Assembly (NCBI GenBank): GCA_947632375.1
Contig: CANRPF010000002.1
Span: forward strand, 55,917 to 119,916
DNA: 64,000 nt
DNA from: an uncultured Bacilli bacterium
Lineage (GTDB): Bacteria; Bacillota_I; Bacilli_A; RF39; UBA660
Direction: 5' to 3'
In this document: piece by piece, positions 11,831 through 48,299 of the stretch
Numbering within the stretch: position 1 is the first letter of the stretch
Layout: every line of letters begins with the position of its first letter
Position numbers and translations under genes: made by a program
Notes under the pieces: model-generated
Database searches by the model: none
The model's input: the letters and a program-made list of their open reading frames with translations, nothing else
Told to the model about the DNA's origin: nothing

Positions 11831-12238
11831 CTATTTAGCCTTGTTATCCTTTAATAAATCTCTTATTTCTTCTAATAATATTTCTTCATTAGATTTTTTA
11901 GGAACTTCTTCTTTATTATCAACTTTTTTCTTTTTATCAAAACCTTCTCTTAATCTATTAAATATTTTAACTATTATAAATATACAGAAAGCCATTAGAA
12001 TAAAATCAATAATATTTTGAATAAATGCACCATAATTAATTGTTGCATCTTTAAACTTTATTGATAAGCTTGCAAAATCATGTCCTCCAATAATAATACC
12101 TATTATAGGTGTAAATATATCATTAACTAAACTTGAAACAATTTTAGAAAATGCATTACCTATAATAACACCAACAGCTAAATCTAAAACACTTCCTTTA
12201 TTAATAAATTCCTTAAATTCTTTAATAAAATTTTTCAT
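11831..12238 (-). CDS. mscL: Large-conductance mechanosensitive channel MscL
   Basis: [50 protein letters not shown]-track extension upstream is unlikely. Confidence 0.95.
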
Positions 12239-12300
12239 ATAAATACTTCCTTTCAAACATATAATAACATAATTTAAAAAAATATAAAAAAATTGTATCA

Positions 12301-12489
12301 TATAACGCCCTTTCGATTTCCTACTTACACACTATATTAATACAATTTTAAATCTATATTTAGGATATTAAATGGATTTTAAAAATCTCAATTTATTTTC
12401 CAAGGATATATGCTTGTTTCAGGTAGGCGTCTCTCTACTATAGTCATAAAAATGATTATGAGATAGCCATTATAAATTAGTTCTGAAAT
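12301..12489 (-). ncRNA. Possible structured 3' part of the DGR template RNA (spacer-like)
   Basis: Non-coding; minus strand GGC..TCTC-[ATAATCAT-TTTT-ATGACTAT]-..GAGA..GCC extended hairpin just downstream of the template repeat. Confidence 0.3.
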
Positions 12490-12599
12490 TGCCGGGCGAG
12501 CGCCGTTGTTGTTGTTCACATTGTTGTTGTTCAAGTTGCCATTTGAGTTCACGTTGAACGCGTTATCGTTAGACGAGTTCCCGTTATAAGGCGACAGAA
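12490..12599 (-). repeat. DGR template-repeat (TR)-like sequence
   Basis: Minus strand TTCTGTCGCCT TATAACGGGAACTCGTCTAACGATAACGCGTTCAACGTGAACTCAAATGGCAACTTGAACAACAACAATGTGAACAACAACAACGGC GCTCGCCCGGCA; 14 AAC and 2 AAT codons; shares both ends and frame with 12815-12927. Confidence 0.8.
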
Positions 12600-12647
12600 G
12601 ATAAAACTCTACATACTAGAGAAAAGGATTGCGCCCTTTTGTATAGC

Positions 12648-12653
12648 ATTATA
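12648..12653 (-). promoter_or_regulatory. Putative -10 box (TATAAT) upstream of the TR
   Basis: Minus strand GTAGGGTATAATGCTATAC about 49 nt upstream of the TR; no clear -35. Confidence 0.35.
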
Positions 12654-12685
12654 CCCTACATTAAATAATTAATGCCTATTTTAGT

Positions 12686-12711
12686 ATCCCGTGGAAGGGT
12701 TTCCACGGGAT
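12686..12711. other. Strong hairpin: 11-bp stem, 4-nt loop
   Basis: ATCCCGTGGAA-GGGT-TTCCACGGGAT; no U-tract in the sense of the upstream minus-strand gene. Confidence 0.7.
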
Positions 12712-12722
12712 TATTTTAGAAC

Positions 12723-12742
12723 TTAGATACTTATGTATCTAA
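12723..12742. other. Hairpin: 8-bp stem, 4-nt loop, 3 nt past the stop codon of the target gene
   Basis: TTAGATAC-TTAT-GTATCTAA. Confidence 0.65.
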
Positions 12743-12745
12743 ATC

Positions 12746-14323
12746 TTATGAAACCACATATGGATTCGTTAAAGTGCCTTCGCCTTTGACTTGTACACTA
12801 GACTCCAGAACAACTGCCGGGCGAGCTGCTCTGCCGTTCATGTACACGGCCTCGTAGACCAAGCTGCCATCTGTCTCCACGATGAACCCGCTATCGCTAG
12901 ACGAATCCCTAAAAGAAGGCGACAGAATCCACCACTCATCACTCGAATTATATAAATAATAATTTGAATTATTTCTATAATATATTGCCCCTGCAAATGC
13001 CACTTCATCTGCTGTTAATGTTGCAACATAGTCATTTACCGAAACAACTGTCTCAGATTCTGATGGCATCAGTGTTGCATATCTACTAGCACTTGATAAT
13101 CCATATAATCTTACATATGGCTCAAAATACCATTTAGAACCAGATGTAAAAGGAGTACCATTACTATTATATTTTGTCGTCCAATCTCCTATCTCCCATT
13201 CTTCATATTTTATCTTTCCTTCATATTCATCCTTTAATGTAGGTTTATCATTTGATGGTTCTGTTTGAGAAGAATTGCTTGTTGTAAAATTTTTGTTAAA
13301 CCAGTTTTGTAATTTCGTTCTTAAACAATCTGTCTTAGTTGTTGCAGCACTGTTTACATAATCCGCTACATATGGAAAGGTACTCGAATAACCATAATAA
13401 ACTGAAGTATCTGAAAATGCATTCTCATTATCTTTGGTACTTAAACTACAAGAGCCTGATTTATCTTGCAATACTATTTTTGTACTGCCATCTCCTTGTA
13501 CTCTTACAATTCTCCAACACATATTATTAAATGTTAGATAATTATCTTCTACATTTCCTCTATAATAGTATGATTCATTTCCTGTTTGGTCTGTATATTT
13601 ATCTGGTGTTTTTGATAATTCTCTTTCAAAATCTTTGCTTATTTCTTGCGCTACTATTGTATATGGTGCTTCTACATATGTTGTTCTATTTTCATCAAAT
13701 TTATAATCATCTTGCGTTTGGTCTGAATTATGTATTACATTATATGCTAATGTTCCTTCTTCATATGGGTTTGATGGTGATGCTATTCCTGAACCATTAT
13801 TTATATTTACTCTTGCTTTAAATTCTGCTCCCATATCTGCTGATTGATCTACATCTGCTTCTTTATAATATACTTTTAATGTATATTCATATTTTGTGCT
13901 CGTTGCTATTTTATCTGTTATTATTATTTCATCTTTACTTGGAAATTGTGTTTCTTCTTTTCCTTTACATTCTGTATTTTTCCCTGATACTTTGCATGTT
14001 ATTGTATATGTTAAATCTTCTTTTCTTGTAAATCCATTTGTTACTCGATCTAACAATACATAAAACTTTACTGTTCCATTTCCTGTATTTTCTACTGTAA
14101 ATGTTTTTTCTGCTATCTCTTGTCCTGGCATTATATCTTCAGCTTTTAATAATCCGTTTCCATCTCCATATAACAATCTTAAATTTGCCATTGTTCCTGA
14201 AATATTTGTTGTTGTACTTCCATTTATTCTTGTTACATAATATGCATATGTTATTCCTATTAATGTTAAGGCTACTATTATTATTCCTACTATACTTACT
14301 ACTATCTTTTGTTTTCTATTCAT
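12746..14323 (-). CDS. Surface-exposed protein with SipW/TasA-like N-terminus and C-terminal lectin-like domain; candidate DGR target
   Basis: MNRKQKIVVSIVGIIIVALTLIGITYAYY export-type N-terminus; YYYRGNVEDNYLTFNNMCWRIVRVQGDGSTKIVLQ; C-terminus DEWWILSPS...ARPAVVLES...GTLTNPYVVS typical of DGR-type C-type-lectin-like variable domains. Confidence 0.8.
   Translation of the reverse strand: MNRKQKIVVSIVGIIIVALTLIGITYAYYVTRINGSTTTNISGTMANLRLLYGDGNGLLKAEDIMPGQEIAEKTFTVENTGNGTVKFYVLLDRVTNGFTRKEDLTYTITCKVSGKNTECKGKEETQFPSKDEIIITDKIATSTKYEYTLKVYYKEADVDQSADMGAEFKARVNINNGSGIASPSNPYEEGTLAYNVIHNSDQTQDDYKFDENRTTYVEAPYTIVAQEISKDFERELSKTPDKYTDQTGNESYYYRGNVEDNYLTFNNMCWRIVRVQGDGSTKIVLQDKSGSCSLSTKDNENAFSDTSVYYGYSSTFPYVADYVNSAATTKTDCLRTKLQNWFNKNFTTSNSSQTEPSNDKPTLKDEYEGKIKYEEWEIGDWTTKYNSNGTPFTSGSKWYFEPYVRLYGLSSASRYATLMPSESETVVSVNDYVATLTADEVAFAGAIYYRNNSNYYLYNSSDEWWILSPSFRDSSSDSGFIVETDGSLVYEAVYMNGRAARPAVVLESSVQVKGEGTLTNPYVVS
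12815..12927 (-). repeat. DGR variable-repeat (VR)-like segment in the 3' end of the target gene
   Basis: 113 nt, shares TTCTGTCGCCT at the 5' end and GCTCGCCCGGCA at the 3' end with the 110-nt TR; most internal differences at TR adenines. Confidence 0.78.
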
Positions 14324-14324
14324 T

Positions 14325-15080
14325 TTAGACTCCTTCTTCCTCTAAATCTATTACTGTTCCATCTGATGTTACCCATTCTCCTTTTGTATTTTTTCCTAAT
14401 GCTACTACTTGTACTGTTACTTGTATTCCTTTGCCTTCATTTATTGTTTGGTCATAGTTTGCATTTTGGTATTCTAACATTACATAGTATTTATCTGTTA
14501 CTTTTGGTTCTATTACTTGAACATTATTTACTACTATTTGTTCTCCATTTGAATTTAATTGGAATGGTCCATATACTATTTCATTTTCTGTTGCTCCATA
14601 ATCATATGTTCCTCTATATAATGTTACTTTTAAATTTTCTCTATCATCATTTGGGTATGTTCTTTGTAATCCATTTTGGATATTTACTAATTTTATTATG
14701 TAATAAGCATTATGTGTTGAATCACCTATACTTGCAACTGTGAATGCTGCTGGTTCTACCAATCCTTGTGACCTATTTATTCCTGATGGTATTTCTGATT
14801 TTGATGATGCTACTTGTGCTGATATTTCTCCATCTGATGAATCTGAATCATAATAGTGAAGTCCATCACTTTTCCAACCTGGTACTATAAATGGTACTGA
14901 CATTGTTTTAGTTGAAGTATACTTTACTTCTAATTTTCCTGCTTTTATTTCTATACTTTTTTCTCCTTCATTTTCTGTTATTCCTGCAACGAAGTATGCA
15001 TATGTTATTGCACCTAATCCAAATAGTACTAAAAGTATTCCGATGATACTTATAATTACTATTTTTTTGTTTCTATTCAT
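14325..15080 (-). CDS. SipW/TasA-like secreted surface protein
   Basis: MNRNKKIVIISIIGILLVLFGLGAITYAYFVAGITENEGEKSIEIKAGKLEVKY; directly upstream of the DGR target gene. Confidence 0.65.
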   Translation of the reverse strand: MNRNKKIVIISIIGILLVLFGLGAITYAYFVAGITENEGEKSIEIKAGKLEVKYTSTKTMSVPFIVPGWKSDGLHYYDSDSSDGEISAQVASSKSEIPSGINRSQGLVEPAAFTVASIGDSTHNAYYIIKLVNIQNGLQRTYPNDDRENLKVTLYRGTYDYGATENEIVYGPFQLNSNGEQIVVNNVQVIEPKVTDKYYVMLEYQNANYDQTINEGKGIQVTVQVVALGKNTKGEWVTSDGTVIDLEEEGV

Positions 15081-15101
15081 TTTTACTCCTCTTTTCTTTT
15101 T

Positions 15102-15185
15102 AATAAATATTTATTAAATGTCTTTTTTCATTGAAAAAAGACATTTAATAAATATTTATTAAATGTCTTTTTTCATTGAAAAAAG
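15102..15185. repeat. Tandem duplication of a 45-bp unit containing a terminator-like hairpin
   Basis: AATAAATATTTATTAAATGTCTTTTTTCATTGAAAAAAGACATTT followed by a second copy lacking its last 6 nt. Confidence 0.9.
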
Positions 15186-15269
15186 AATTGCGATAACTCT
15201 TCGCTATCTTCATATTTATTATGTCATAAATTGGCATAAAAATACCCCATCAAATAGTTGGGGTATTTA

Positions 15270-18080
15270 TCATTTAACTACGATATTAACAATACGTTTT
15301 TTTATTACTATTGTTTTTATTATTTCTTTGCCTTCGATATGTTTTTTTACGTTTTCATTATTTTTACTTAGATTTATAACTTCTTCATCTGTCATATCAT
15401 TATTTATTTTTATTGAGCCTCTTAATTTACCATTTACTTGAACGCCGATTTCTATTTCGTCATCTATTGTTTTTGCCTCATCATATTTTGGCCAAGATGA
15501 TTCACATATTGGCGTATAACCTATCATTTCATTTAATTCTTCTGTTATATGAGGTGCAATAGGATTTAATAAAGTTAATAATACATGATAATCTTCTTTA
15601 GAAATGCTTCCTTTTTCTAAGTATGCATTAGTTAATATCATAATTGTTGAAATTACAGTATTATATGACATATTTTGTAAATCATTTGTTACTTTTTTAA
15701 TAGATTTATGTATTAGGCTTTCTAATTCTTTAGTATAACCTTTGTTATCGTTTACTATGTCTTTTAGTTTTATTACTTTTTCTATAAATCTTTTACATCC
15801 TTTTAAGGAATCTGTACTCCAAGGTGCATCTTGTTCGTAATCTCCCATAAACATTTCATATGTTCTTAATATGTCTGCACCATATTCTCTTATTATGTCA
15901 TCAGGATTTATTACGTTTCCTTTTGATTTACTCATTTTTTCATTATTTGATCCTAATACCATACCATGAGAAACTCTTGTATAAATCATTTCTTTACTTG
16001 GTACTAGACCGATATTATATAAGAATTGTACCCAGAATCTTGCATATAATAAGTGTCTTGCAGTGTGTTCCATTCCACCATTATACCAATCGACTCTTCT
16101 CCAATATTTCATTGCATCCATTGATGCAAATTCTTTATCGTTATGAGCATCCATAAATCTCAAGAAGTACCAACTTGATCCTGCCCAATTTGGCATTGTA
16201 TCTGTTTCTCTTTTTGCAGGTCCCTTACACTTTGGACATGTTGTATTTACCCAATCTGTTATATTTGCAAGTGGACTTTCTCCTGTATCAGTAGGTTCAT
16301 ATTCTGCAACATCTGGAAGTAATAATGGTAAATCTTTTTCATCCATAGGAACCCATCCGCATTTTTCACAGTATACCATTGGTATTGGTTCTCCCCAGAA
16401 ACGTTGTCTTGAGAATATCCAATCTCTCATTTTATAGTTCGTTTGTTTTTTGCCACATTTATTTTTTTCTAACCATGCAATCATTTTTTCTATGGCTTCT
16501 TCTTTATTTAATCCATTTAATTCTTTTGAATTAATATGAATTCCATCTCCAACCATTGCACCTGGGTTCATTGCATATTCGAATGTTTTTGCATGTAATT
16601 CGTCTTTTATTTCATTTAATATGGTATTTTTATCTACCCATTCGCTAACAAATTTTTCGTCTTCGTCTAAATTTAATTCTTCTTTTTCATCATCAATAAG
16701 TTTGAATAAGAATCCTGTTGATTCTATATTGAAATATTTATCTTTATTATAAGCATAATAATGATGATTTATTTTTGGTAATTCATTTATTAATTCTATA
16801 TTTTTATATCCTGTTTCTTCTTTTATTTCTCTAATAGCGCAATCTATTGCAGTTTCGCCTTCTTTTATTGTTCCACCAACAAATAATCTTCCACCTAAGT
16901 TTTTCCAATTAATTGTTAAATATTTATTATTTTTTTCATCATATAGTATTGCTACTATTGAATTTTTCTTTGTTTCGTTTTCATGTGGTGTTCCTGTTTC
17001 TTCTTCTAATACTTGTATTATTGGAATATCAAATTTTTTTGCAAAGTCATAGTCTCTTTCATCATGAGCAGGAACTGCCATTATTGCGCCTGTTCCATAG
17101 CTTGCTAATACATAGTCACTTATAAATATAGGTATTTTTTCATTATTAACAGGATTTATTGCATATGCTCCTATAAATACTCCTGTCTTATCTTTATTTA
17201 ATTCTGTTCTTTCTAATTCATTTTTTAATGCACATTCTTTTTTATAAGCTTCTACTTCTTTACGTTTTTCTGGAATTGTTATTAAATCAACTAATTTATG
17301 TTCAGGAGCTAAAACACAGTAAGTTGCTCCATATAATGTATCACATCTTGTAGTAAATACAGTAAATTTTTCATTTGTACCATCTACTTTAAAATCTACT
17401 TGTGCTCCTGTTGATTTTCCAATCCAATTTATTTGTCCTAATTTTACTTTTGGTGCAAAATTTGTATTATCTAATCCTTTTAATAAATCTTCAGAATAAT
17501 CACTCATTCTTAACATCCATTGTGATTTTTCTTTTTGAACTACAGGGCTTTTACATCTTTCACATATTCCACCAGCGGCATCTTCATTTGATAATACCAT
17601 TTTACAGTTATCACACCAATTTACAGGCACTTTCGCTTTATATGCCATACCATGTTTATAGAATTGTAAAAATTGCCATTGTGTCCATTTATAATAGTCT
17701 GGATCTGTTGTTGAGAATTCTCTATCCCAATCAAATGAAAATCCTAATGACATCATTTGTCCTTTAAATGTTTTTATGTTTTCTTTAACAGCTTCTTTTG
17801 GATGAATATGATTTTTTATTGCATATTCTTCAGCAGGTGCTCCAAATGCATCCCATCCCATAGGATAAAGTACATTATATCCCATCATTCTTTTCATTCT
17901 TGCAATTGCATCTTGTGCAGTATAACCTCTAACATGTCCTACATGTAATCCTGCACCAGATGGGTAAGGAAATTCAACCAATATATAATATGGTGGTAAT
18001 TTGCTACCTGTTTCGGCTTTAAATGTTTTATTATCTAACCAATATTTTTGCCATTTCTTTTCTATTTCATTATAATTCAT
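15270..18080 (-). CDS. leuS: Leucyl-tRNA synthetase with an internal Nudix domain
   Basis: PYPSGAGLHVGHVRGYT, MAVPAHDERDYDFA, FSRQRFWGEPIP, KMSKSKGNV; inserted Nudix box GTIKEGETAIDCAIREIKEETGY. Confidence 0.96.
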   Translation of the reverse strand: MNYNEIEKKWQKYWLDNKTFKAETGSKLPPYYILVEFPYPSGAGLHVGHVRGYTAQDAIARMKRMMGYNVLYPMGWDAFGAPAEEYAIKNHIHPKEAVKENIKTFKGQMMSLGFSFDWDREFSTTDPDYYKWTQWQFLQFYKHGMAYKAKVPVNWCDNCKMVLSNEDAAGGICERCKSPVVQKEKSQWMLRMSDYSEDLLKGLDNTNFAPKVKLGQINWIGKSTGAQVDFKVDGTNEKFTVFTTRCDTLYGATYCVLAPEHKLVDLITIPEKRKEVEAYKKECALKNELERTELNKDKTGVFIGAYAINPVNNEKIPIFISDYVLASYGTGAIMAVPAHDERDYDFAKKFDIPIIQVLEEETGTPHENETKKNSIVAILYDEKNNKYLTINWKNLGGRLFVGGTIKEGETAIDCAIREIKEETGYKNIELINELPKINHHYYAYNKDKYFNIESTGFLFKLIDDEKEELNLDEDEKFVSEWVDKNTILNEIKDELHAKTFEYAMNPGAMVGDGIHINSKELNGLNKEEAIEKMIAWLEKNKCGKKQTNYKMRDWIFSRQRFWGEPIPMVYCEKCGWVPMDEKDLPLLLPDVAEYEPTDTGESPLANITDWVNTTCPKCKGPAKRETDTMPNWAGSSWYFLRFMDAHNDKEFASMDAMKYWRRVDWYNGGMEHTARHLLYARFWVQFLYNIGLVPSKEMIYTRVSHGMVLGSNNEKMSKSKGNVINPDDIIREYGADILRTYEMFMGDYEQDAPWSTDSLKGCKRFIEKVIKLKDIVNDNKGYTKELESLIHKSIKKVTNDLQNMSYNTVISTIMILTNAYLEKGSISKEDYHVLLTLLNPIAPHITEELNEMIGYTPICESSWPKYDEAKTIDDEIEIGVQVNGKLRGSIKINNDMTDEEVINLSKNNENVKKHIEGKEIIKTIVIKKRIVNIVVK

Positions 18081-47894: not shown

Positions 47895-48299
47895 TTAAAA
47901 CTTATCTATAAAATCTCTTACTTTAATATAATTATCTTGACTTGATTCTATTATTACTTTAATTCTATCTAAAAGTAGATTAATAGAATTTTTTTCATAA
48001 TTATATTTTTGAGCTTCAGAAAATACTTTATAATAATTATTAGTATCAAACTTCTTTTCTAAAACTTCATCTTGATCAAATACAATATAATTTATTTCAA
48101 GTTCATCTAATTTTTTAATAACTTTATCTTTTGCACTTTTAGGAAAACCTAATTTATCATTATTAATCATATAAGACATAATATAATTAACTAATACTGC
48201 ATCAGTAAAAAAAGTATCTATAAATGTTCCAGAACTTATAAAAACTATATAATCTTTATATTGTTTTTTTAATAAATTAAATCTATCTTTTACTTTCAT
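47895..48299 (-). CDS. Hypothetical protein, MutS N-terminal-like
   Basis: [27 protein letters not shown] has a MutS-I-like look; weak. Confidence 0.4.

Follow-up and report, generated by a model that had tools for sequence, protein, structure and literature searches.

A probable dispersed diversity-generating retroelement in an uncultured Bacilli bacterium

In the 64-kb stretch of DNA analysed here (the window), the 3′ end of a surface-protein gene and the intergenic DNA beside it carry a pair of repeats resembling the template repeat (TR) and variable repeat (VR) of a diversity-generating retroelement (DGR), and no reverse transcriptase (RT) is found inside the window. Is the pair part of a DGR and, if so, where is its enzyme? 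A TR next to the RT is usual in DGRs, not essential, and remote parts can act in trans. The genome (G000), that of a gut bacterium, is a MAG of 132 contigs with an estimated contamination of 9.13%, and at about 2.07 Mb it is larger than those of its congeners (1.0–1.4 Mb). The window lies on contig C2.

Template repeat, variable repeat and target gene

The TR (positions 12490..12599 of the window, minus strand, 110 nt) is intergenic, and the VR (12815..12927, minus strand, 113 nt) lies in the 3′ coding end of the target gene. A first-pass annotation had placed both repeats at these coordinates, with TTCTGTCGCCT in common at one end and GCTCGCCCGGCA at the other, and was correct on all of these; the 3-nt difference in length is genuine. 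Translated, the TR reads LSPYNGNSSNDNAFNVNSNGNLNNNNVNNNNGARPA, and its 16 Asn codons were recounted as 14 AAC and 2 AAT, the same as annotated. Over the first 27 codons, for which 24 mismatches had been claimed (16 on 27 adenines and 8 on 54 other bases), we count 25 (17/29 adenines and 8/52 others), a trivial difference. The bias held in a formal test: across the whole gapped alignment, 20 of the 36 template adenines are mismatched, compared with 11 of 74 non-adenine positions (Fisher one-sided p=1.6e-5). Read in reverse, VR adenines are mismatched in just 4 of 20 cases, so the bias runs from TR to VR. The two repeats match at 65 of 92 ungapped positions, the best value elsewhere in the window being 44, and this match is beyond chance. 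Both are richer in GC than their surroundings, as had also been observed (0.48 for the TR and 0.57 for the VR, compared with 0.29–0.33 in the flanks and 0.24 in the window). The GC-rich GCTCGCCCGGCA is present at the 3′ ends of both the TR (12490..12501) and the VR (12815..12826; both minus strand), where, by analogy with BPP-1 (PMC3240598), it may serve as an IMH-like anchor.

The target gene (12746..14323, minus strand) encodes a 525-aa surface protein with an N-terminal membrane or signal helix and a variable C-terminal domain (W-LSP...RPAVVL). Variable domains of DGR targets characteristically have a C-type-lectin or similar fold; an AlphaFold2 prediction had a mean pLDDT of 53, with 67–87 in the C-terminal domain, and a fold search returned no significant match. 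The probable operon partner of the target (14325..15080, minus strand), upstream of it, encodes a 251-aa secreted-type protein that is weakly homologous to the N terminus of the target, and is itself preceded by a 186-bp leader (15080..15265, minus strand) containing a terminator, tandem palindromes and an RBS. About 30 near-identical copies of this leader, at 90–98% identity, occur in G000 (on C2, C8, C9, C17, C26, C28, C29, C34, C35, C41, C44, C47, C66 and C100); within the genus it is essentially confined to this genome, and it precedes surface-protein paralogues where checked. Paralogues of the target likewise number about 30 (on C2, C8, C9, C17, C21, C26, C28, C29, C32, C34, C35, C41, C42, C44, C47, C63, C66 and C100), with variable C-terminal ends, most of which do not match the C2 TR, the sole TR module that a covariance-model search detected in the genome. 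That this TR templates all of the paralogues was rejected: the window VR is the only strong match, C9 gives a weak one (p=0.01), and a close pair of paralogues without a hypervariable GC-rich tail also contradicts the idea. The leucyl-tRNA synthetase encoded at 15270-18080 (minus strand) seems to contain an entire internal Nudix box (GGTIKEGETAIDCAIREIKEETGY), an arrangement that resembles the insertion of a Nudix domain in or near the editing region.

A conserved template module and a remote RT

On the target's strand, the target gene is followed by the TR, a spacer of ~200 nt and then mscL (11831-12301). The spacer (12300..12489, minus strand), which with the TR makes up a putative template-RNA module, has homologues ahead of avd-RT in G002 and G003, and the segment 5′ of the TR (12600..12665, minus strand) is homologous to G003 (68% in an alignment over query positions 336-471). 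In both of these congeners (at G002:C78 and G003:C24), the corresponding TR and spacer stand immediately upstream of avd-RT, which indicates that the module became separated in G000. Spacer homology in G000 extends almost to the start of mscL, the point at which avd starts in relatives. Iterative nhmmer on fetched loci yielded ~100 matches to the TR 3′ end plus spacer, mostly a short distance upstream of avd-RT; the window copy (12287-12535) is among the best of them, and a covariance model locates it at 12387-12535 (E 4e-16). Work on BPP-1 assigns the spacer a part in bRT-Avd recruitment and cDNA priming (PMC12875486). A conserved RNA fold was not recovered by RNAalifold (0 pairs on alignment A5 and 3 on A6), the single-strand fold of the module is unremarkable (z=-1.4), and no Rfam match to it came near the gathering score. 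At G003:C24 (L047, 780-4195), an element bounded by terminal inverted repeats of ~36 bp and carrying three genes for tyrosine recombinases interrupts the TR.

G000 has three RVT_1 matches, and one only, on contig C35 (13954-15087; 378 aa), belongs to the present DGR lineage. This RT carries the motifs GLPIGNLTSQ and YMDD, which fit the DGR-type patterns [ILV]GxxxSQ and YxDD, and the best PDB match of its profile is 8ub7 (E 4e-42), which we take to be the BPP-1 DGR RT, with group II intron RTs behind (1.7e-22). Directly before it lies an Avd-family ORF of 117–138 aa, and both reading frames are intact. By itself the G000 Avd matches Avd models weakly (E 0.004); of 12 Avd homologues, 8 match Pfam bAvd and 10 match NCBIfam Avd (DivGenRetAVD). 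A DGR-type RT with an Avd-like gene in front, together with the adenine bias, supports the DGR interpretation offered by the first-pass annotation. The TR/VR pair on C2 is real and the system is a DGR, but a dispersed one. The canonical cassette layout, with the TR adjoining the RT, is absent, the TR being on C2 and the RT on C35, and a search of the RT surroundings found no TR. Because the TR is ~51 kb from the nearest end of its 120-kb contig and the RT is 2 kb from one end of C35, the two must be at least ~53 kb apart.

A further component lies in the window, apart from both TR and RT. An ORF at 47895..48299 (minus strand) encodes a MutS-domain-I-like DGR accessory protein (MSL), matched by Pfam MutS_I and, at E 1e-29, by an HMM of MSLs from relatives' DGR cassettes, to which true MutS scores 1.7e-7. 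A MutS-domain-I-like ORF lies upstream of avd in many relatives, and MSL (PF01624) is a known DGR accessory (PMC10053308).

Neither of the other two RTs in G000 was accepted as the partner. The one on C24 has different TR/VR-like repeats of its own and a reading frame with four TAGs, and is probably from a phage DGR; the one on C4 shows a SETNQ motif and has phage-like surroundings. The C24 locus (L003/L012, 1-1700) is a further DGR-like set, unrelated to the first, whose near-repeats are GC-rich; it may come from a phage in which TAG codes for an amino acid.

Detached templates across the family

A model of the TR module was searched in 246 genomes of the family, 67 of which gave matches, and the RT profile was run on 38 of the family genomes. 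Of the 39 genomes that entered the tally, 14 carry one or more remote modules, lying over 5 kb away from any RT or on another contig, and 7 have only remote modules (G000, G106, G235, G125, G247, G061 and G167); modules near an RT number 46 and remote ones 56. All of these counts are approximate, since the genomes are drafts, most were selected for their TR hits and the model has low sensitivity at a distance. The RT surroundings were refetched in G125, G106, G235, G167 and G000, and no TR was found in them.

In two relatives, detached templates are accompanied by VRs with a strong adenine bias. Contig C35 of G016 (L116, 6586-8463) carries a target gene, a TR, an IS200-type transposase and then rimP-nusA-infB, and no RT; the RT of this genome is on C40 with its own TR. 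Between the TR and VR of G016:C35, 17/29 adenines are changed and 0/71 other bases (20/39 and 0/65, respectively, in the cis control, G022), a pattern that records recent homing from a template with no RT beside it. G125, which is 99% complete with 1% contamination, has ten TR modules on six contigs and its RT on a seventh. Its TR at C10:5349 and VR at C15:7349 differ at 17 of 33 adenines and 3 of 71 non-adenine positions (p=5e-8), placing TR, VR and RT on three different contigs.

Could the G000 arrangement be a relic, that is, a compact DGR broken by rearrangement in which the C2 pair is an uncopied fossil and the C35 RT is templateless? The 11/74 non-adenine mismatches between TR and VR, where G022 and G016 have none (0/65 and 0/71), fit such a history, as does G247, in which the RT has decayed (five in-frame stops; C6:5485-6504) and seven TR modules persist. 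We nevertheless consider it unlikely, because the C35 RT and Avd frames are intact, the detached TRs of G016 and G125 have recent adenine-directed VRs, and the detached spacer is conserved as well as the cis ones. Its identity to the two cis spacers is 74% and 70%, compared with 73% between them, and with a divergence no greater than theirs it does not look freely decaying. The 11 non-adenine mismatches indicate that homing at the window VR may be old.

It is very improbable that the separation is an assembly or binning artefact, with TR and RT truly adjacent or C35 derived from another organism in the bin. The assembly is a fragmented MAG with some estimated contamination, and larger than its congeners, but the TR lies deep inside its contig and is followed by the spacer and mscL, not by avd, and the pattern recurs in 13 further genomes, including the nearly complete G125. 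Contig C35 also has the only YebC of the genome and a leader that shares 92% identity with the C2 leader, so despite the estimated 9% contamination the two contigs probably come from one organism. Finally, that there is no retroelement, the TR being a gene fragment whose differences arose by recombination among paralogues, accords with some 30 paralogues sharing a leader and having variable tails mostly unmatched to the TR, but is scarcely credible given that the directional adenine bias, the 16 Asn codons and the 3′ spacer conserved before avd-RT across the family would all be unexpected in a gene fragment.

Proposed mechanism and relation to known systems

The reading that we favour, and hold to be probable, is that the C2 pair is the template and target half of a dispersed DGR served by a trans-acting RT-Avd on C35. 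We suggest that the TR and its conserved ~200-nt 3′ spacer are transcribed as a small RNA module, whose spacer would be bound in trans by the RT and Avd from C35. The RT-Avd complex would then copy the TR with errors opposite adenines, and the mutated cDNA, anchored by GCTCGCCCGGCA, would replace the matching 3′ end of the adjoining surface-protein gene. The surface protein, secreted or anchored in the membrane, would thereby acquire a variable C-terminal domain. Template and enzyme would then be unlinked in nature, and the system may still be active in G000. In BPP-1, avd, TR and brt supplied on a plasmid act in trans on the phage VR (PMC3240598).

The G000 system resembles the BPP-1 DGR (bRT, Avd, TR plus spacer, and the VR of mtd) in the class of its RT motifs, the Avd-like partner, the adenine-directed transfer from TR to VR, the position of the VR at the 3′ end of a gene, the conserved spacer after the TR and the best PDB match of the RT profile, 8ub7. 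It differs in that avd, TR, spacer and brt are contiguous in BPP-1, whereas in G000 the TR with its spacer, avd-RT and the MSL gene are at three places. Remote DGR targets are already known (PMC4891356, PMC7517822, PMC10907252). In Treponema denticola and cyanobacteria, dispersed surface or CLec target paralogues are likewise combined with one TR/RT locus (PMC4891356, PMC7517822); there, however, the targets are remote and the TR stays with the RT, whereas in G000 the template is remote and in relatives templates are multicopy and arrayed. Thiohalocapsa PB-PSB1 also has incomplete loci, with VRs best explained by an RT and/or TR acting in trans, but its TRs are parts of complete DGR loci, and the available part of that account describes no conserved TR-spacer module scattered at a distance from every RT (PMC10907252). 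One nanoarchaeal locus has been drawn without an RT ORF (PMC4372165). A literature search, incomplete for subscription journals, turned up no account in which TR-spacer modules are scattered, or lie in arrays, at a distance from the RT.

A large DGR survey accepted a system only if a repeat lay no more than 1 kb from the RT (PMC8144416) and would therefore miss dispersed TRs; counts of such DGRs would be too low and their targets would be overlooked. If templates do act in trans, new hypervariable targets could arise by copying a cassette of ~350 nt without copying the enzyme, and one mutator could serve a large family of surface proteins. The system also provides a model, found in nature, of DGR templates that act in trans, and its sequence element can be searched for computationally to find others.

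More tentatively, and with rather less expectation of being right, we raise the possibility that in this Bacilli family a single RT-Avd acts on a library of template-RNA cassettes (TR plus conserved spacer) spread over the whole genome, placed beside targets or in tandem. The same mutagenic copying would slowly alter the templates too, and the system would thereby evolve them itself. Hints that the templates themselves may be rewritten, a lead only, come from comparisons between TRs: in the G106 array, spacers show 6% mismatch compared with 21–23% in the TR cores, and one pair of array TRs differs at 8 of 32 adenines and 1 of 73 other bases, but little adenine bias is left when TR-TR differences are pooled. 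Tandem arrays of TR modules ~300–400 nt apart, often distant from any RT, occur at G106:C6, G235:C21 and C46, G125:C25, G167:C11, G170:C50 and L184, and relatives have up to a dozen templates scattered per genome.
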